Shown here: piece after piece, positions 14,096-64,000 of the stretch
How positions within the stretch are numbered: position 1 is the stretch's first letter
Layout: each line of letters begins with the position of its first letter
Assembly: GCA_008802785.1 (NCBI GenBank)
Contig: VUYT01000033.1
Span: forward strand, 144,387-208,386
Length of the DNA stretch: 64,000 nt
Reading direction: 5' to 3'
From: Symmetrospora coprosmae
Lineage: Eukaryota; Basidiomycota; Cystobasidiomycetes; Symmetrosporaceae
The notes under the pieces: generated by a model
The model's input: the letters and a program-made list of their open reading frames with translations, nothing else
Told to the model about the DNA's origin: nothing
Databases searched by the model: none
Made by a program: the position numbers and the translations under genes

Positions 14096-15481
<1,386 letters not shown>

Positions 15482-15668
15482 TCTATGATGGTAGCTGCCG
15501 GCCAAGTGATCCATGGCGGACAAGGGGTGACACTGTGGGAACGGCAGGCCTGCTGACCTGTGATAGACAGAGGCCTGGATCCGGCGCAGGCACGATTTGC
15601 AGCGCCTTTACCAGGGTGGTCTGGGATGCCACTAGGATGGAATAATCAAGGGGATATCGTCGAATGAC

Positions 15669-15676
15669 CATAAAAG
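15669..15676 (+). promoter_or_regulatory. TATA-like element of zinc-finger-like gene A
   Basis: CATAAAAG lies about 100 bp before the ATG, followed by a pyrimidine-rich leader. The element occupies the same relative place as those in units B and C. Confidence 0.5.
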
Positions 15677-15773
15677 CGTGTCCGCCCACCCATTTCTCCC
15701 TTGCCTCCCGACGGCACCGAGACAGACTACAATCGCCCCTATATCCGAAATCGCCCACGATCCAGATCACAAC

Positions 15774-16559
15774 ATGTCGTACGAGTGCCAGATTTGGTCA
15801 GTCTGCGAATCCTTTCGATAGGGTTGTCTCCTTTGCTTGCTTGCTAACAACTTCTAGCATCTGCAGTGCCACTTCATTTGGCCGCCAGACGGACCTCGAC
15901 GGTGGGCAATTGCGCTTATGATGGTTGGCTAGACATGTTGCTGTGCCAGTTGAAGCTAATGTTATCAATCTTCTAGTGCACGCGCCCACGTGTGCTTTCC
16001 TTCGCAGTGTTGCCTTATCGACGGGCGGCGTTCTTCATGGGAAGTCAGCTAGCAACTGGCGAGCGAGCGAGTATAGAGATATGTGTCCCCTCGCTAGCGG
16101 GCGAAAATGCCAACAACCAATCATGGGCGGCGGTGAGGACTTCCGACTTGCATATCGTGCATGCAACTGCCTGTCTCTATCCAAGCTGACTATGAAGTCG
16201 CCTCCTCGCTAGTCGGTAACATCGTTATGCACCTGACTAAATCTAAAACCCATAGACTTGCACGGGTCGACGGCAAGTTCCTAAAAGAGGCCTTAGCCGA
16301 CATCAAAGCCGCTGCGAGGAGAGAGCGCGAAAACGCAAAGCTTGCTCTGCAAAGAAGGGTACAGTCAGCGGCAGAAGCATCTGACGCTACGGCACGCAGG
16401 AACTATCGACCCATAGCTCCGGCTAATACCCATAGTACCCCTCCGCGAGCAACCACTCCTCTTCGTTCTCGGACCGGCTTCACCCCGCTGCCACAGACGC
16501 CGCCTCACCGTGGATCCAAGAGCCCGTCCACTACACCCGGTGGTACACGCAAGCACTAA
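15774..16559 (+). CDS. Small zinc-finger-like protein, paralogue A of a tandem family
   Basis: Proposed exons are 15774-15796, 15867-15901, 15977-16132 and 16213-16559, giving 186 residues. Splicing exons 1-3 creates a perfect classical finger, YECQICATSF then DLDVHAPTC, with spacing C-x2-C-x12-H-x3-C and the core F and L in place. A second Cys/His cluster follows (MCPLAS, a Cys, then two His after the third intron). The tail is basic, then Pro/Thr-rich, ending SPSTTPGGT plus three residues. The acceptor of intron 3 (TAG at 16,210-16,212) is the least certain join; a canonical 40-nt GTAAC to CATAG segment just downstream would shift the frame if removed. A nuclear nucleic-acid or protein-binding role is inferred only from the finger. 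Confidence 0.6.
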
Positions 16560-17028
16560 GACGGAGTCTGGCACACTGATTCGAGCGTCTATATTGACTA
16601 GACGATCCGACAGGTTCCAGAAATGTCTGATGCGATGTCCAGATCCCCTCCTAACAGTCCTCTTCATACCCTAGACGCTACTGCTAGCCTGCCTTCCGAA
16701 ATTCATATATGCAATGGTCTAACTCCATCTTACCGTCCCTCATGTTACCTCTGCACTCGCCCGTAGTTTGGAGATACTGAAAGGGCAGCTGATCCTCATG
16801 CGATTGACAGCTGACCTGCTTACCGTGCAGTCGTGTCGTCTGGCTACGGCAGCTGCCGACCAGCTGATCCGTGCCAGACAAGGGGTGACACTGTGGGAAC
16901 GGTAGGCCTGCTGTTCTGCGCCAGACAGAGGCTTGAATCCGGAACAGGCACGATCATGCAGCGCCTCCACCAGGGTGATCTGGGGATGTCATTGCGACGA
17001 GATGGCCAAAGGGAGTGACCTGAGTCGA

Positions 17029-17036
17029 CTATAAGA
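17029..17036 (+). promoter_or_regulatory. TATA-like element of zinc-finger-like gene B
   Basis: CTATAAGA lies about 80 bp upstream of the ATG. The following AGCGTGT is shared with unit A, so the core promoter is conserved between units. Confidence 0.5.
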
Positions 17037-17111
17037 GCGTGTACCGCTCCATCACCTCTCTTGACTCTCGGTTCCATCTAAGCACAGTCTCCACGAAGCT
17101 CAGGCACCATC

Positions 17112-17889
17112 ATGCCTTCCAAAAGATTCTGCTCGCGATGGTCAGCTTGCTGCCTTGTTCTTCATCTTCAGATCGTGTTTATTCATGCTGACGATGTGCG
17201 CTGGCTGTCTTACAGCGCTAAAAGGTCCAAGAGCAAGGAAGATGAAGACGGTGCGTTAAGCCGAATTCGAAGGGGGCGCTTCTCCAATGTCATGGACCGT
17301 TATGACTGACGGTCTGGCGTGCCGTCAGAGCACGACAGGATCTGCTTACTCATATGCGCGATTGCCCTCTCGGCTGCCGGGAAGTATAATGGCAAGGCCG
17401 AGAGTGATTGGAGAATAGAGATGTTCCGCTCAAAAATCCCGTGTCCGCTGGCATCATGTTTGACTTCAATCCAGCAGGAAGGTATGCTTAAAACTTGGTA
17501 CCATCCGATGCCGGCGCTGGCACGGCTTATCGCTGATACGAGCCCTTCCTGCGGCAGCGGGTGGCGTTGCCAGACACCTCCGGACTGTTCACAGTGGCGA
17601 GCAGCACAACGGCATGGCCTTCTCGGACCTCTTCAAGTCCTCCGATGCCAGTCGGCGCCAAGCGAAGGCGTACTCTCGAGCAAAGCAGCCTCGCGCTGGC
17701 GAGTCCAGTGCCGCCGGGGCAGCCAACGCTACGAGACAGATTCGTTCGTCGGCTTCGCGGACACCTCCTACTAGGACACCTCCGCCTAGAACAACTCCGA
17801 CTGGAACTCCTCCGCCTGGATCGGGATCTGCTCGTCAGGCCTCGAAGAGCCCTTCCAAATCACCCGGAGGCACACCAAGGACTCGCTAG
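17112..17889 (+). CDS. Small zinc-finger-like protein, paralogue B of a tandem family
   Basis: Exons 17112-17140, 17216-17250, 17329-17481 and 17558-17889 join in phase to give 182 residues. Exon 2 is exactly 35 nt, as in paralogue A, and exon 3 is 153 nt against 156. The first finger is FCSRCAKRS then EDEHDRIC, again C-x2-C-x12-H-x3-C. A second possible finger starts PCPLASC and ends HLRTVHSGE, which resembles the end of a C2H2 finger plus its linker. The tail contains repeated TPP motifs and ends SPSKSPGGT plus four residues, matching the tail of A. The central segments of A and B share ALS, a GK and PLAS. Function is unknown. Confidence 0.65.
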
Positions 17890-18382
17890 CTCCTAGATAG
17901 TCTTGCGACCCCTCGATCCAAAAGGCTCTTTCATCAGATACGCCGGCAACATTCGAAATGGATCAATGCTATTCTCGCAGTTCCCTTCCACTGTCCCCCT
18001 TCCAACACGCTGCTCATACCCTAGACGCTTCTGCTAGCCTGCCTCCGGAAACTCATGTATGCACTGAGCACTGACTTGAATCCATCTTACCGTCCCTCCT
18101 GCTTGCCTTTGCACTCACCCCATGGAACTACTGTGCGGACAGCTAACGTTGATGCCGACGGCAGCTGACCTACCTACCGTGCAGTCGAGTCGTCTGGCTG
18201 CAGCAGCTGACGATCAGCTGACTTGGCCCGGTCAAAGGGAGCCGTGTGGGAAAGACAGCCCTGCTGGCCATACGAGCAAGAGGACTGCATCCGGGGGAGG
18301 CAATGCCCGGCCGCGCCTCTGCAAAGATGAGGTGGAAATGTCATGAGGACCTGCTGGATAAAAGGATCTAGGATCCGCTGGG

Positions 18383-18390
18383 TATATAGG
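18383..18390 (+). promoter_or_regulatory. TATA-like element of zinc-finger-like gene C
   Basis: TATATAGG lies about 95 bp before the ATG, in the position equivalent to those in units A and B. Confidence 0.45.
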
Positions 18391-18479
18391 AGGATCTGGT
18401 TGCGGTCACTCATCGACTTCCGACAACTCCTAGCCTCGCATCCGATACACCGTGCTATTTCGACCGTACGACTGTCGAT

Positions 18480-19179
18480 ATGGGTAACACCCCTTGGGCA
18501 TGCGGCATTTGGTGAGTCATTCGGTGTCAATGTAGACCGTTGCCGTCTCGATTAAACGTCGGCAGTATCCCCCTCGCTCTCCGACAATAGCCACGCTGAG
18601 TTGAAGCTGGATGCTGGAGCAAAGAAGCGTAAGCTCGCCGTGCTATTGTCCTGCTTGGCCTTTCGGCTGTCAGGGCTGAGCTTCAGCTTCTGGCAGATCA
18701 CGAGCAGATTTGTGGTGCCAGAATAAGACTCGCTGCTCAGCAGTTTCCCGACAGGCAGTACAACCCAGCGACCCGTACCTGCCCCTGCTGCTGGCGCTCG
18801 GACTTCAGTACCCAGGTCCGCGCTCTACTTCCTGGCCCCTGTGTGCTATGTCCCGTCACTGACGATATGCTGTTCCCGACCAGCATCCCTCTTCTTACAC
18901 ATACAGACACACACGGACATTACGCTGGATGGGCAACCGCTTACCAATGTTTTTGCGGGATATCGGAAAACGTCTGCTTCCTACACTCGGCCTAACGCAA
19001 CTGTCCAACGCCAGCCGGTGGTACGCAAGCCGGTCGTACGCAAGACGATAGTACACCAGCCTGTCCAGCATTTGAGGCTGCCTCCCCCTACGGGCTATTT
19101 ACTGCCGTCGCAAGCACAGCGTCCCGCGTACCCCGATGGGCCTTTCGCAGACGGCGTTAGAGATTTCTTCAGGAAGTAG
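18480..19179 (+). CDS. Small zinc-finger-like protein, paralogue C of a tandem family
   Basis: Proposed exons are 18480-18511, 18591-18628, 18697-18815 and 18907-19179, giving 153 residues. The first finger is assembled as WACGIC, then HHEQIC after a 12-residue spacer, the same position and spacing as in A and B. Exon 1 ends in the same phase within the second Cys codon (TG followed by the intron) in all three genes. A CPCCW cluster follows. The tail differs from A and B: it carries a repeated (V)VRK(P/T) stretch and then Pro-rich sequence ending DFFRK. The acceptor of intron 1 must skip a nearer AG that would bring in a stop, and the last intron is ambiguous, so the model is less secure than for B. 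Confidence 0.5.
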
Positions 19180-19534
19180 CTGTCGACGTCCTAGATGCGG
19201 AGCTCCGTCTGGCCCTCTGATACCCTGATGGCTCCTATCAAACAATCCCCTGCTCCGCATGCAATTCCTTCCTTCTTCCCTCTGGCCGTGTTGCTAGCTT
19301 TGGTCTTGCACTTAAATATACCGCCAGATGCAGATGCTCTTCAGCTTCAGATCGAAGCTGAGTCGGATGTTCCACCTTCCACAGAGACAGCATCGCTCAA
19401 GCCTTCCGCGTCCACTCCCTCTTCAGCACCGCTTTCCTCCGTCCCGGGGTGGTACCAAACGTGCGGCGAAAAGTCGTCCACCCAGTCAATAATGCATTCC
19501 ACCCCTCTCGCCTCGCACAGCCTCGTCGCCTCCG

Positions 19535-20722
19535 CTATGTCCGCGCCACCAAAGCCTTTCTGGGCAATCCGACATCCAGACGTTCGAGGTACACCTGCCA
19601 TTGCGGATCTGCGAGATGAGCAGCGAGCTGATGCACGATGTCGGAGGGTGTGTAGAATCCGAGCTGGGTGAGATAGAGACGTCGTAGCTTGGGCGGAAGA
19701 AGGCTGGCGTCCACGGAAGACAGAGGGCATGACAGCACGAGCTCGCGAAGAGCAGCGAAGGCGCTGTAGTCGAGCACGGCCGGCTGCCATGGCAAGTCGG
19801 GATAGTGGACTGTTGCCGCGTGCTGAATCTCCAGGCTGAGCAGACGCTTTCGCACGAATCCGCAGATCTTGCCGAGATTCCTCGCTGCGGCGAGACCGTG
19901 CTCGTCAAAAGGCGGTGAGACATATAGATTGAGGTATAGACTCTTCAGAACTGGCGCTTGCTTGGCGACGGCCAAGGCGAAGTCGCTGTTGCAATCGTTG
20001 CCGGAGCCCAAATCGACGCCGCGCAGCTCGGTCAAATGGGCGAATAGCGGTAGCTCGTAGGCACCTGCAGGAATCGGCTCGGGAAGGTGGAGGGTACGAA
20101 GGGTAGCACCGGCGCGGCGTACTAGTTCCACAGTTGGTACTCCGTCCGGAAATCCCGATGCCCTGTACTCCAGGGTCTGCAGGCGGTCGGCCTGCACGGC
20201 CTGCTCGATGAGATGAAGCGTTTCCACCCAGGCATCCTTGAATGGATATACCAAGTCGGAAGAGCCTACGTGTAAATACTGCGGTGATGTGCAGCTGAGG
20301 AAGTCACGCAGCGCTTCCGGCGTGACGGCAACGTCCTCCGGGTCGGGGCGACACCCATATAGGGCGACGCGGAGCACATTGAGATTGCGGATGAGGCGCC
20401 TGACATTGCTGAGCTCGTTCACGCAGTGGAAGAGCTTGGCGGGCTCTAGGTACGGCACAATGGTCTGTTTGTCGTCGCTGACATGACAGTGGATGGCCAC
20501 CCAAGCCCATTTGTACAGGGCCGTTTGTAAGGCGCGATGAAAGCGCTTGCAGACGAGCATCCAGGAAAGGACTGTGGCGTTGAGCAGATGTGTGTCACAA
20601 GGACCGATCTCGAGCTACGGTATGGTGCCGCGAAACGCACTGGTCGATCTAGGCCTCTTGATATCGCCGACTGTCGCCACCCTTTCGAGGATTTCCAGGG
20701 GAAGGGAGTTGATGGTGATCAT
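19535..20722 (-). CDS. F-box/LRR protein with a disturbed 3' reading frame
   Basis: Exons 20722-20641 and 20571-19535 (69-nt intron) give 372 residues. The N-terminus is a clear F-box: INSLPLEILERV, then across the splice LVCKRFHRAL. The rest is leucine-rich with LRR-like segments (LTELRGVDLGS, LRRLYLTQLG). Such proteins usually act as substrate receptors of SCF ubiquitin ligases through Skp1. The frame stops at 19,535 soon after YLERLDVGL. The frame ending at 19,347 continues directly with sequence rich in plausible family residues (IAEATRLCEARGVECI), so the true C-terminus may lie there, through a frameshift near 19,560-19,580 or an improbably short 35-nt intron. Confidence 0.7.
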
Positions 20723-24538: not shown

Positions 24539-27500
24539 ATGGTGCGCAGAGCTGCCTGTTCCCGCCGGGATCTTAGGACGCCCCAGCTGTTCTACCCCAG
24601 CGAGTCTTGCTGCCAGCGATACTGACTTCCTTTGCCTTCTCCCGCCGTAACAGGCGAGCGTCGCTTCCGGGTCGCAGAACGTCGGGGACAAGTCGACAGA
24701 GGTGAGCTCGCAGCTCGCACAGTGGCGCAAAGCTCCGTCTCCTCTCGCGGCAGGCGCTTGAGACTCTGAGAGAGGCCCGCTGATTTTATGGCTTGGTATC
24801 CGTCTATCCTCTGCAGTCCTTCCTGACCGCACTCGTCACCAATGCCGCTATCGGGGCGGCTACCCTCGGCGCCTTCCTCATCCTGCGAAGGCGGTTCCGC
24901 AACGTCTACGAGCCAAGATATGCTCTGAAGCCGACAGGCCCCAAGCAGAGCCCGCTCCCTCAGGGCTTCCTCAGCTTCATACCTGCAGTCTTCCGTGCGA
25001 GAGACGAGGATATCATCCGGTGCGTCGCATCGGTATCCGATTTTGGTCCGTCCAAACGGTTCTCATCTCGATATCATCCCCCATCCCTCCCTCACAGACA
25101 TAACGGCTTGGATGCGTACCTATTCAACAGGTATAGTGGCGTTCTGAAGCTTTGGTATAACCCAGTTTTGAGCTAAGACCGTCAACACATCTGTATTTCC
25201 CGTCCAACTCTGAAGGTTCATCAAGCTCCTCTTCTACTTCTTCCTGCCGGTAGCTATCGTCTCATGGGCGGTCGTGAGTATGCTCGACTCGTAATGCCCC
25301 GATCAGCTCACTGACGCCCCTCCGCGGACAGCTGCTACCCGTGTACGGAACGGGCTCCAACGGCAATGTGCAGCTCAACCGCTTCACCTTTGGTGCGCGC
25401 ATATCCTTATACATTCCTCGTCATAGCCTCTAACATGTCCCTCCCGCTCTCCAGGCAACATTGGAGCCGATCAGCAGCCGCGACTGGCAGCCCCGCTCAT
25501 TCTTGCATGGGCCAGTACGCTCGGCTTTCTCTGGCTCATCCGCCGAGAATGGCTCAACTACATACAGGCTCGTCGAGAGTTCCTTACCAGCCGCGGCTGG
25601 GCCACCCGGGTCAGTGTCTCGTGTATCACTTCTTATCGCTTGGCGCTGAAACGTCATTTAACTCACAGCCACAAGCGAAGACGGTGCTCATCACCGGCCT
25701 TCCTAGTGACTATGCAAGCGAATCCGCCCTTCGCTCTCTCACTAGCCACCTCCAAGGGGGTGTTGCTTACATCTGGATCGCAAAGGACGTCTCGGAGCTA
25801 TCCGACGTGTACGAGCGACAGATGGATGCTGCGCAGAAGCTCGAGAAGGCCAACATCAAGGTCATCAAGCAGGCCACCAAAGCCGCGCGGAAAGACAAGG
25901 CGCCGGCTGGGGGAAGCTCCGATGGGCAGCACAGCAAGTCGCTCGCCACAAAATACTTGAAACCCAAGAAGCTGCCACACCATCGCCTGGGCAAGATCCC
26001 GTTCATCGGCCAGAAAATTGAGACAATTCCTTGGGCCGAAGAGGAGATTGAAACAACCCAGAAGGAGCTTGATGCCGGGCGGTCCAACCCGGACAAATAC
26101 GAGACCCGACCGAGCGCTTTGATCCTGTTCAATGACCAGATCGACGCGCACATCTTTGCGCAAGGCGGAGAGGAGGGCGAGTCGAAGAAGCTCAAGCTGT
26201 GCCAGCGATTCATCAATGTGTCGCCGGATGACATCGTCTGGTCGAACCTGGGCAGGAAACCGCTCGTCAACACGGGTCTCCGGGTCGTCTCACTCACGAT
26301 CACGACGCTGATCACGACACTTTATGCGCCAATCACTGTCTTTGTGAGTCTCTATTCCCTCTCACAACCACCGTGTCCGACTCTGGACTAATATTTTGGC
26401 GAATTCTCGTGTTCATAGGTTACCGGAGTGTCTAATGTGTCTTCTCTATGTAGCACGGTGTCCTTCCTTGGCTGGCTGTGCGATCTCCCTTCGCCCATAA
26501 ACGGTATCATCCAGTGCGTGTCCGGGTTCAAGGGAGAATCCCCAGTGGATCGGAGCTGATACCTCTGTATCATCGATCAGGGGTGCATTGCCGCCGCTAG
26601 CTCTCGCTCTGGTCTTCCTGCTCGTTCCAATCGTCTTCCGGCTGCTCATCAAGCTCGAGGGCGTTCCCCTTCAATCCCAGATCGAGCACCGTCTCGAGAG
26701 AAGATACTTCGTATTCCTGTTCCTGCAAGGCTTCCTTCTGGCCACCATCAGTTCCGGCATTGTCAAATCTATTAGCACCATTACGCAGGATCCGTCAGCG
26801 ACCGTCAACATCCTCGCGCAGAACCTACCAGCCGCCGCCACATTCTTCATCACGCTTATCCTCGTACATGGCCTCACTAAGGCTGGGCTCGGCATCCTTC
26901 AAGCTCCTAAGTTCCTTCTGTACTTCGTCAAGGTCAAACTGCTCGGCAGCACGCCGCGCAGTCTTCTCAATGCCCGGCAGTCGATTCCCCAGGTCCAGTT
27001 TGGCACGGAATATCCCAACTCGGTCAGTCCCAGCGCTCGTCTTTGACACCGATCCCACGCTGACCCGATCTACTACACAGCTGCTCATTGCCGTCATCGG
27101 CCTGTCGTACAGTACCATTTCTCCCATCGTGTGCGGCTTCAGCGCCTTTGCCTTCTTCAGTCAGTCTTGGCAATCTTTCCATACCTGAGTCCCACAGTGA
27201 AACTGACTTCCTGCACGGCACAGCATGGTGGTTTGTCTACAAGTATCTGGCTCTCTACGTTTGGGTGAGCTGAGTGGCGTAGTGATCCCTGTGCCATCGA
27301 GCTGTAACTGACCTGCAACTGCCATCAGGACCAACCGCCCGAGACCGAGACTGCCGGGTTGTTCTTCAAGACGGCGCTCAACCAGCTCTTCGCCGGCATC
27401 TACATCTACCTCCTCTGCCTGACGGGCCTGTTCTTCCTGAGTCGCAACGAGTCCAACAGCCTGAGCACGGCGGGCCTCGCATGCGGCATCTGTTCGGCCA

Positions 27501-28057
27501 TTCTCCTGGGTCTGTCGATCTTGGTGCAGATCTACCTCAACTGGCGACTCGGTTCGGCAAGCGTGTACCTCGATGCCTCGATGGCCGACCAGACCCGCCA
27601 GAACGAGCGGCGATACGCTCAGGAGATGGCGGCAGAGAAGGCCAGCCCCAACGGCGGAATGCGACCGGTCGACACTCGCGCTACGGATGGTACTGCAGTC
27701 GGCGCGGGGGGAGACGATCAGAAAGCGGGCAAGGGTCGCAATGACGCGTACGTGGAGAGGGATGTCGAGTCGGGCGACGGACACGGCCAGCAGCGTGACA
27801 GCACCGGTACAGCAGAGGCAGACGGGGAGCTGGCAGGAGGGCTCGATGAGACGACCTTCATGCACCCGGCGCTGTACAGGGAGCAGCCGACCGTCTGGCT
27901 GCCTCGCGACCAGCTCGGCCTGTCCAGGGAAGCTGTGGAGCGAGCGCGAGCGCGCGGGGTGCAGATTACGGACGAGGATGCCACCATAGACAACGATGGC
28001 AAGATCGACATTCAGACGGACGAGCTGCCGGGTGAAGATCACGATGCCAATCTCTAA
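24539..28057 (+). CDS. OSCA/TMEM63 (CSC1/RSN1-like) osmosensitive cation channel, copy 1
   Basis: Thirteen exons: 24539-24541, 24654-24701, 24817-25019, 25098-25130, 25216-25273, 25332-25392, 25455-25609, 25669-26343, 26419-26513, 26581-27022, 27081-27159, 27224-27264 and 27329-28057, phase-consistent, 873 residues. The first coding exon is the ATG alone. Family marks: an extracellular N-terminus with a first TM (SFLTALVTNAAIGAATLGAF), YEPRYALKP, a cytosolic RRM-like domain (KTVLITGLP, a long helix, SALILFNDQIDAHIFAQ), then DDIVWSNL and the multi-pass core with SPINGIIQGALPPLALAL and FFKTALNQLFAGIYIY. The C-terminal PALYREQPTVWLPRD is a conserved fungal tail. The predicted role is as a plasma-membrane mechanosensitive or hyperosmolality-gated calcium-permeable channel. 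It forms a tandem pair with the next gene. Confidence 0.93.
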
Positions 28058-28575: not shown

Positions 28576-31500
28576 ATGGTGGGTGGGGATCATTGAGCGA
28601 GCACGCCCTGGCGCGTCCCTCTGTTGCTGGCACGAGACTGCTGCGAACGCCTCGCAGAGGGGTTCCCGCCTGGATGAGCACGCACAGCAGCATCGACAGC
28701 GGGGGAAGGCATATCCAAGGACGTGTGGCTGATGATGCAGAGTGTGTACTTCTCCATCCACAGTCCACGGTAGGCCAGGGAGCCGCCCAGGGCCAGGACA
28801 AGTCGACAGAGGTGAGGCACGGGATTCCAGAGGGAATGGTGGCGAAAAGGCCCGTGCACGTCAGAGGGTGGAGTCGGTCGCAACTGACGCGCAACATCTC
28901 GATAGACCTTTGTCACCGCGCTCATCCTCAATGCTGCCATCGGAGGCGCAGAGCTGCTCGCCTTCCTCATCCTGCGACAGCGCTTCAAGGTGGGGGAGCT
29001 CCCCGCAACTGTTTGAGGCAGGGTTACTGACTGAATTACATCCCATGATGCAGACTGTGTACGAGCCTCGAGCCACTCTCAAGCCCTACGGACCCAAGCA
29101 AGACTTGCTCCCCAGTGGCCTGCTGAGCGTCATCCCTGCCGTCTTCCGCGCCAAAGATGAAGACATCATTCGGTGCGTGGGCCCGATTCCCTCTCGAGAC
29201 TCTGGAGACTAAATCGCGGGTATGCATGCTGTGCACACAGTCACAATGGAATGGATGCCTACCTCTACGTCCGATTCTCCAAGCTCCTCTTCTATTTCTT
29301 CCTCCCGACGGCCATCTTGACATGGGCAGTGGTGAGTAACGTCCTACTCTGCTCATCGACCTCAGATCTCACCGAAAACATGCCCCGCAGCTCCTGCCAA
29401 TCTATGGAACTGGCTCGAACGGCAATCAGCAGCTCAACAAGTTCACCTTTGGAAACATCGGACGCGACCAACAGCCCCGCCTGGCAGCCCCTCTGATTCT
29501 CATTTGGATCATGACGCTCGGCCTGCTCTGGCTCATCCGCCGAGAATGGATCTCGTACATCAGCAAGCGCAAGGAATTCCTCACCTCGCGAGGATGGATG
29601 ACCAAGCCTCAGTCAAAAACGGTGTTGATGACCGGCATCCCCGACGAGTACGCCAGCATCGAGGCCATCCAGTCCCTGACCAACCACCTCGAGGGCGGCG
29701 TCGCGCACATCTGGCTCGCAAAGGACGTCAAGGAGCTGGCCGAGCTGTACGAGCGCCAGATGAAGGCTGCCAAGAAGCTCGAGAGCGCCAACCTCAAGGT
29801 CATCAAGACTGCCACGAAGCTCGTCAAGAAGGGCAAGGTGCCCGCCGAGGGTAAGCCTGATGCTAGCGAGGACGGCTCCCTGGCACTCAAGTACCTGCCA
29901 GCCAAGAAGATCCCGCACCACCGTCTCGGAAAGATCCCCTTCGTCGGAACTAAGGTTGAGACGATCGACTGGGCAGAGGGCGAGATTGAGGAAACGCGCA
30001 GGCTCCTCGAGGCTGGTCGGGAGCGCCCGGACAAGTACGAGCCCAAAGCGTCGGCTTTCATTCTGTTCAATGACATGATTGACGCTCACGTGTTTGCACA
30101 AAGTGAGTGACTGCTTGTCTCATGCAGCGTCCATCTGTCCGGATGAGCTGACTTCCGCGAACAGAACTCGGAGAGAAGGACCAGCCAATGAAGCTCAAGC
30201 TATGCAAGCGGTACATCAACTGTGACCCGGAGGATGTTGTGTGGTCCAATCTGGACCGCAAGCCTCTCGTCAACAAGGCCATGAAGGCGGTGTCTCTGGC
30301 GGTCACCACTCTGATCATTAGTGAGTCCAGCTGGACATGACCACTCGATTAGGCAATGGATAGCAGCTGACAAAAGCATCTTTGGACAGTCTTCTACACT
30401 GTGCGTCTCTATGTGTCATGCTTGGGCCATCCCGTTCGAGCACGCTGACCGGACATCGCCACTGATCGCTTATGACCTACCTTCGAATAAATACAAAGGT
30501 TATCACGACGTTTGGTAGGTCTACATGGTGTCACGAAGCGTTCTACGATCGTAAGCTAATCCTGTCCAATGCCAGTCACGGGAATAAGCAACGTGAATCG
30601 CCTATGCACGCTCGCTTCGTGGCTAGGATGGCTGTGCAACCTTCCCACTCCCATCAACGGTATCATCCAGTGAGTCTCGCTCAGATGATCGTCCTGTTGG
30701 ATGGTAAGCCATCGTCGTGGACGATCTGACACCCCTGCCGCCTCCTCACCTATCTTTCAGGGGTGCACTGCCGCCCATTGCGCTCGGTAAGGCTCTCCCT
30801 CTGACTCCCGACATTCGTGCGGCCGATCTGACGCTTGTCTCTGTCAAAAAGCCGTGGTCTTCATGCTCGTTCCAATCATCTTCCGGCTTCTTCTCAAGCT
30901 CGAGGGTATCCCTCTCAGGTCGCAGATAGAATGGAAATTAGAGCGCCGCTACGGTGCTTTCCTAATCATCCAGGTGAGTGATCTTAGCTATCCTGTATCG
31001 TGCTGTTCGTACTGAGACCGTTCTGGCTCCGTTTAGGGCTTCATCGGTCGGTCGGCTTCCCCGGCAATTGTCTGCCTCTGCTATGCAAACTGACGTCTCT
31101 ACATCCGCAGTCGGTACGCTGTCATCCGGCATTGTGGCTAGCATTTCGGAGATCATCGACAACCCTGGATCGGCCGTCAACCTTCTCGCTCAGAACCTGC
31201 CCGGAGCCGCCACTTTTTTCATCACCCTGATTCTCGTGTCGGCACTAACAAAGGCGGGAGGAGCCATACTGCAAGTCGTCAAGCTGCTCCTGTATACAGT
31301 CAAGGTCAAGCTTCTCGGTGGAAATCCGCGTAGTCTGCAGAAAGCCCGTCATGCGATGCCGCAAGCTGCGTACGGAGTCCAATATCCCAACCAAGTAAGT
31401 CACTTTCGTTTGCGCCGGCCCTCAGGCGAGACTGACCTTGTCCTTCGCATCATAGCTCCTCCTGGCAGTCATCGCGCTGTCGTACGCAAGCATCGCGCCT

Positions 31501-32395
31501 TTGGTGTGCGGCTTTGCGGCCTTGGGGTTCTTCAGTAAGCGCAACTTCCGACCACTGCTGCCTGTGTCCGTGCACTGACCTTCTGCGTTCTTCAGCCTGG
31601 TGGTTCGTCAACAAGTACCAGGCTTTGTTCGTCCTCAATCAGTCTCCGGACACCGAGACTGGCGGACTCTTCTTCAAGACTGCCCTCAACCAGCTCTTTG
31701 TCGGCATCTACCTGGCGCTCGTCTGCCTCATTGGCCTATTCTTCCTCTCGCGAGACGCCAACGACCAGCTCTCGACTGCGGGCACCGTCTGCGGAGCGCT
31801 CACTGCAGCCCTGCTCGCCATTTGCGTCATTGTGCAGATCTGGCTCAACTGGAAGCTCAACCCGACGAGCATTTACCTCTCAACGGACCTTGCCGACGAA
31901 ACACGCAAGAACGAGCATCGATACGCGGAGGAAATAGCTGCGGAGAAGGGCCTGACGAACAACAAGATGGGTCCGGTCGACACCCGGGCTACCGACGGCA
32001 CTGCAGTAGGAGGCAACGAGCAGCGCTCCAGCTCTGAGGGGCTCATCGGTGGCAAGGGTGCCACGAATGGCCGAGGCGACATTGAGATGGGCGACCTCGA
32101 CGGCAGGCACGCCGGACAGGGCGGCAAGTACGGCGGTTCGGCGGGTCTTGCCCAGGCGGATCGTGAGCTAGCTGGCGGCCTGGACGAGAACACGTTCAGT
32201 CACCCCGCACTGTACCGCGACCAGCCTACCGTCTGGCTGCCTCGAGACAACCTTGGCCTCTCGCGCGAGGCAGTCAGGCGCGGCCGAAAGCACGGCGTCC
32301 TCATTACCGACGACGATGCCACGATTGACGAGAAGGGCAAGGTGGACATCACGCGGGATACTCAGCCGGGCGAGACATTCGACGTCAACCTTTAG
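28576..32395 (+). CDS. OSCA/TMEM63 (CSC1/RSN1-like) osmosensitive cation channel, copy 2
   Basis: Sixteen exons: 28576-28578, 28764-28811, 28906-28989, 29054-29172, 29241-29331, 29391-30102, 30165-30320, 30390-30400, 30499-30514, 30576-30669, 30761-30786, 30852-30973, 31037-31046, 31111-31394, 31456-31534 and 31596-32395, phase-consistent, 884 residues. It is closely similar to the preceding gene throughout: the ATG-only first exon, a 48-nt second exon ending DKSTE, YEPRATLKPYGPKQD, DDxxW-type VVWSNLDRKPL, TPINGIIQGALPP and the tail HPALYRDQPTVWLPRD. Introns differ markedly from copy 1, with micro-exons of 10, 11, 16 and 26 nt in the transmembrane core. Same predicted channel role, arising by tandem duplication. 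Confidence 0.92.
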
Positions 32396-63887: not shown

Positions 63888-63936
<49 letters not shown>

Positions 63937-63971
63937 ACAACCACCCCCCCCCCCCCCAGCCCCCCCCCCTC
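63888..63971. repeat. Poly-C homopolymer tract with few interruptions
   Basis: 49 consecutive C residues (63,888-63,936) are followed by ACAACCA and two more C runs. The composition changes abruptly relative to the flanks. It could be a real G/C tract or a sequencing/assembly artefact near a gap. Confidence 0.85.
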
Positions 63972-64000
63972 CCTCATCGCCCTCTCCTCCTCACCCACTC

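Follow-up and report, generated by a model that had tools for sequence, protein, structure and literature searches.

A probably old tandem array of three small predicted genes, each with a C2HC-like finger assembled by splicing

Are the three direct units that lie between positions 15490 and 19179 of this DNA a family of genes, and if so, how old is it? The window, by which we mean the whole stretch of DNA analysed, is the final 64 kb of a 208,386-base contig in a genome of 20.05 Mb and 77 contigs. A preliminary description had proposed three direct units of about 1.35 kb, and the direct-repeat families bear this out with start-to-start spacings of 1350, 1354, 1357, 1358 and 1359 nt. Each unit carries an ATG and the TATA-like element ascribed to it (Table 1), and a scan found three further boxes at 16590, 16706 and 17385. 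Indeed, the first-intron junctions 15796/15867, 17140/17216 and 18511/18591 yield at the sequence level the reading claimed for them: the intron divides the codon of the second Cys (TG|GT) in all three units, and the second exons have the expected lengths. The spliced Cys/His clusters are CQIC-x12-HAPTC in A, CSRC-x12-HDRIC in B and CGIC-x13-HEQIC in C, the last of which can also be read as x12-H-x4-C, since two His are adjacent. All three units would thereby hold a C2HC ligand set in the broad sense, i.e. four ligands in one spliced frame.

Could a free choice of introns produce such clusters by chance? As controls we used 360-nt pieces of the window with free choice of GT-AG introns (n = 686; half-overlapping, on both strands, with plus-strand starts from 15301 to 19199 excluded and minus-strand ones there retained). 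Any C-x2-C-x12/13-H-x3-C finger appeared in 1 of the 686 pieces, and no piece combined such a finger with a donor inside the codon of the second Cys and a second exon 30-42 nt long, against 3/3 units. Under the same rules each unit gave a single solution, every time with the shared architecture, and under looser rules shuffled units gave a solution in 2/200 (A), 1/200 (B) and 0/200 (C) cases. Based on the repeat spacing, the spliced cluster, the shared intron positions and phases (all three introns for A and B, introns 1 and 2 for C), the last-exon homology of A, B and the database protein P0002, and the upstream conservation, we favour with moderate confidence an old array of small protein-coding genes, three in tandem, derived from one ancestor and each with a single N-terminal C2HC (CCHC)-like cluster.

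Table 1. Positions of the upstream regions, TATA-like boxes and predicted exons of the three units in the window.
Feature	Positions	Strand	Remarks
Unit A conserved upstream core	15490..15625	+	vs B 115/136 identical, z 21; vs C 92/125, z 11
Unit A weak TATA-like box CATAAAA	15669..15675	+	
Gene A exon 1	15774..15796	+	ends TG before GTCAGT
Gene A exon 2	15867..15901	+	35 nt; alternative acceptor 15857 would alter spacing
Gene A exon 3	15977..16043	+	carries HAPTC
Gene A exon 4	16256..16559	+	basic S/T-P-rich tail, stop 16557-16559; homologous to B exon 4 and P0002
Unit B upstream stretch between A and B	16664..16847	+	common to C only; CAGCTG 16786, 16808
Unit B conserved upstream core	16848..16984	+	CAGCTG 16850, 16861
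Unit B TATAAG	17030..17035	+	
Gene B exon 1	17112..17140	+	spliced reading, finger test
Gene B exon 2	17216..17250	+	35 nt
Gene B exon 3	17329..17383	+	carries HDRIC
Gene B exon 4	17595..17889	+	alternative start 17574 keeps frame
Unit C upstream region matching unit B	18014..18336	+	CAGCTG 18162, 18204, 18215
Unit C TATATA	18383..18388	+	
Gene C exon 1	18480..18511	+	spliced reading, finger test
Gene C exon 2	18591..18628	+	38 nt
Gene C exon 3	18697..18815	+	carries HEQIC; 18815 is one choice of 3' end; poor codon score
Gene C last exon	18907..19179	+	start is one choice; best of six frames by codon score; head like P0002

The proposed four-exon structure is firm at the sequence level for genes A (142 aa) and B (137 aa), while for gene C many junctions of exons 3 and 4 would keep the frame. 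In A and B the intron phases are 2/1/2 and the introns (15797-15866, 15902-15976 and 16044-16255 in A; 17141-17215, 17251-17328 and 17384-17594 in B) are nearly equal in length, with 70/75, 75/78 and 212/211 nt. An acceptor at 17573 (exon 4 from 17574) would also keep gene B in frame with 144 aa; the predicted start at 17595 is preferred, because the intron then has 211 nt against 212 in A and the acceptors line up in the DNA alignment. The score of the A-B finger-region protein alignment was matched by 0/1000 shuffles, as was each of the exon-4 protein scores for A-B, A-P0002 and B-P0002. The tail reported as common to A and B is present as SPSTTPGGT and SPSKSPGGT, respectively. In the last exon of gene B, in-frame 15-nt repeats at 17761-17817 (TPPPR-like) are a possible source of length change.

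How far does the family reach? A protein database search with gene A retained 2 of 114 candidates. One is P0001, which reads gene A itself without splicing; the other, P0002 (E 5e-8), is a database ORF of 212 aa on an ENA contig of 2788 nt. P0002 as query retained 2/522, itself and P0001, and a four-sequence exon-4 profile 1/2630, again P0001; these searches are blind to relatives that share no five-residue word or are cut by introns. P0002 is 44% identical to A over 110 columns and has the last-exon head and the tail TGFTPLPQTPP-x-RGSKSPSTTPGGTRK as here; its N-terminal half is probably intron. Searched against this genome, it matches A only (50% identity, E 1e-15), plus weakly B (E 0.03). 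The family was thus lineage-specific, as first described, insofar as a single outside relative was found, but it extends beyond this genome, where the best match of that relative is only 50% identical. The expectation that ordinary gene calling would mangle these genes was borne out by P0001, which starts within intron 3 of gene A and runs into exon 4. At 16107-16556, P0001 has W at an in-frame TGA, so that the database entry follows another code or differs by one base.

A fourth copy was found in the same genome by neither DNA nor protein search, and the counts of these searches are lower bounds; weaker protein matches, with E 0.04 and above, were taken as chance. A genome scan for a 24-base upstream pattern with at most 3 mismatches found A and B, and neither C nor further copies. 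When we searched the flanks for a decayed fourth unit, its score was reached by 22, 85 and 14 of 200 shuffles on the left and by 3, 183 and 11 of 200 on the right, where there may be a faint trace of such a unit. Contig collections of viruses and prokaryotes gave 15 and 268 pattern matches, with no relative among them. Our literature search found no description of the array, although one may exist in print; a C2H2 gene survey of 30 basidiomycetes, in the part of the paper available, covers three Ustilaginomycotina (PMC12295980).

The first two intron phases of gene C are those of A and B. Its finger compares with the fingers of A and B no better than shuffles do (307/1000 and 211/1000 reach the score), and the same holds for its last exon against theirs (853/1000 and 345/1000). 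Common ancestry of A and B as tandem paralogues is seen in upstream DNA, finger, intron phases and exon 4; for C the predicted kinship comes from upstream DNA, position, the first two introns and the Cys/His frame only. We found no phase-2 junction linking the expected donor 18758 to the head of the last exon; a phase-0 intron at 18816-18906 is one among many open frame-keeping choices. The head itself, HTDITLDGQPLTNVFAGYR, resembles HQDMTFDGKTMQEVFKSVR of P0002, with 0/1000 shuffles reaching the score head to head and 19/1000 with the whole exon. One could also picture a decaying array, with A and B as genes or recent relics and C as a pseudogene, in which gene conversion left the upstream likeness. 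The missing junction, the poor coding score of exon 3 and a C protein that cannot be aligned with A or B speak for such decay, which we nevertheless hold to be unlikely, as C retains its ATG and its first two introns and has the four Cys/His still in one frame, and as its last exon stays open to 19179 in the best of six frames with a head like that of P0002. In-frame 15-nt repeats at 19008-19044 (VVRKP-like) are a possible source of length change in this exon.

Was the array recently amplified, as the preliminary description had it? Introns 1+2 give z values of only 0.4-2.4 between units, and in local alignment of the transcribed regions 75/200 (A-C) and 133/200 (B-C) shuffles reach the score, against 0/200 for A-B. 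Exons 1+2 (z 0.2-2.6), exon 3 (1.7-3.9), intron 3 (1.9-3.8) and the 5' leader (-2.0 to 1.5) are similarly diverged, and exon-4 DNA gives z 6.9 for A-B, 1.7 for A-C and -0.5 for B-C. We reject a recent duplication, for which this divergence of introns and most exons gives no support. Since introns 1 and 2 and most exon DNA are near chance between units, the duplication would be old, or the gene bodies change fast. Judged at the sequence level, the array is a real tandem family, old and with very few known relatives.

The upstream DNA behaves differently, and this contrast of kept control regions with drifting bodies is the most interesting part of the array. Similarity between units is clear over 136-321 nt upstream of the TATA-like boxes; beyond the values for A in Table 1, the core gives 90/130 identical positions for B-C (z 12), and the far-upstream stretch of B matches C at 85/101 (z 17) and 59/79 (z 13). 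As shuffled alignments reach about 0.65 identity, the z values outweigh the percentages. Around the TATA-like boxes the unit pairs give z 5.0, 2.7 and 2.8. Either constraint on a long control region or gene conversion confined to it could account for this. A control region kept beside drifting bodies suggests that expression timing and the Cys/His frame outweigh the remaining sequence. That the upstream stretch is so much better conserved than the transcribed part might also mean that it is itself the functional element, e.g. a non-coding RNA, and that the frames downstream are incidental; we give this hardly any weight, given the finger architecture in 3/3 units against 0/686 controls, the exon-4 homology to P0002 and the lack of any Rfam family at gathering score within the window.

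Tandem or micro-exon families of rapidly evolving genes have tandem copies, very short 5' exons and fast change. The array shares these traits as a kind and differs by its conserved spliced Cys/His cluster. In a bolder reading, on which we would place only a small stake, the units are cassettes: gene conversion or strong constraint holds the control region constant from unit to unit, and the micro-exon bodies come under diversifying selection around fixed zinc ligands, in the manner of a system of self-recognition or genetic conflict.

Within the conserved upstream DNA the hexamer CAGCTG stands out. The window contains 49 copies against about 21 expected from base composition, and the 200-nt groups richest in it are the two upstream of B (16786, 16808, 16850, 16861) and C (18162, 18204, 18215), with spacings of 42 and 11 nt common to both. 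In the unit A core the hexamer is altered at both aligned places that fall within the core. Two copies left of unit A, at 15335 and 15388, lie beyond the aligned core and are 53 nt apart like the outer two of the B/C three, a match that may be coincidence. The motif ACAAAGGGA resembles a pheromone-response element from smut fungi. With at most one mismatch, 13 sites occur in the window where 7.57 are expected; 7/100 shuffles reach 13, and we take the motif as no evidence; one-mismatch sites lie upstream of B and C at 17006 and 18232.

What kind of proteins would these genes encode? The coding signal is weak. Codon scores, with 11 long window ORFs as the training set, are -0.01 per codon for A and -0.05 for B (with the earlier exon-4 start), to be compared with an off-frame 95% point of -0.03 (132 windows) and an in-frame 5% point of -0.05 (66 windows), and this counts against the gene reading. 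In gene A the spliced frame is the best of three forward frames for exons 1-4, a reverse frame being higher for exons 1 and 3; in B it is best for exons 2 and 4, barely for exon 3 and not for exon 1; in C it is best for exon 2 and not for exons 1 and 3, and the tail is the best of six. The predicted proteins have pI values of 10.9, 10.9 and 9.8 and contain 6, 7 and 1 S/T-P motifs (A, B and C, respectively).

The C2H2 core consensus is C-x2-C-x3-F-x5-L-x2-H-x3-H. Gene A fits it as C-x2-C-x3-F-x5-L-x2-H-x3-C, i.e. except for the last ligand, and shows a weak alignment with C2H2 fingers of solved structure, Gfi-1 being the best (E 0.0046); B lacks F and L, and in C the F position is taken by L, with no L at the L position. 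Against PF00096 (zf-C2H2, cut-off 25.2 bits) and PF13912 (zf-C2H2_6, 25 bits), gene A stays below cut-off, with 13.3 and 13.5 bits for the whole protein and 17.1 and 17.3 for the finger piece, and B and C have no match. The best Pfam match of B is a zinc ribbon (14.5-17.6 bits against a cut-off of 24.8), and C matches no Pfam family at all. Among the 62 and 7 matches listed for two C2H2 models in this genome, none is one of the three fingers. All three clusters share the Cys/His spacing of C2H2/C2HC fingers (PF00096, PF13912 and PF22995, the C2HC finger of BIRD-IDD), to which A alone adds the F and L core positions and sub-threshold matches; they differ in the Cys as fourth ligand, the single finger and scores below cut-off. 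Because the cut-offs are missed and B and C keep the ligands without the usual core residues, we do not place A-C in the Pfam zf-C2H2 families.

The predicted Cys/His cluster, split over three short exons, would bind zinc, and A and B end in a basic, Ser/Thr-Pro-rich and probably disordered tail, perhaps tuned by proline-directed phosphorylation. The combination of a single C2HC-like finger with such a tail suggests small nuclear adaptors that would bind nucleic acid or another protein, and the shared upstream region would co-regulate their genes. Could such proteins instead act in the nucleus of another organism? By analogy with rice blast, small, basic, fast-diverging, tandem and finger-like proteins might be host-directed nuclear effectors. 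The part of the source available describes Magnaporthe oryzae effectors that are fungal and nuclei-associated, with C2H2 fingers, a likeness by description, and that are secreted and enter host nuclei (PMC7672089); here, the N-termini MSYECQ, MPSKRFC and MGNTPWAC are by eye not hydrophobic leaders, and the effector reading is very improbable. The favoured reading is an old, narrowly distributed and probably co-regulated array encoding small basic proteins with one C2HC-like finger. It offers a worked example of small eukaryotic genes whose family escapes six-frame searching. Here the control region identifies the paralogues more readily than the protein does, so that a promoter search may turn up members overlooked at the protein level. 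Provided that it is expressed, the array would make a simple test of what one C2HC finger plus a disordered tail does in this organism.

Turning to the surroundings, no Rfam family reaches its gathering score in the whole window, and the minus-strand ORF at 19535-20560, right of the array, matches nothing above any Pfam cut-off. A Pfam scan of 30 window ORFs or ORF pieces outside the array found a G-patch protein, an SMC-type piece, PHM7/CSC1-type channels, a bromodomain protein, a RING protein and TFIIE-alpha. The channel genes form a tandem pair on the plus strand (25366-28054 and 29511-32392), pieces of which match PHM7_cyt, RSN1_7TM and PHM7_ext. The 86-nt C-rich run at 63888-63973, just before the contig end, suggests that this end is probably an assembly break and not a telomere. 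Left of the array, the minus-strand protein starting at 14646, interrupted by introns, is one that we take to be histone H3 and that marks the window as eukaryotic; a compact fungal genome would fit. Short tandem repeats at 14648-14812, of GAGTGTGA type and then GAGGGA, lie directly upstream of the start of this protein.
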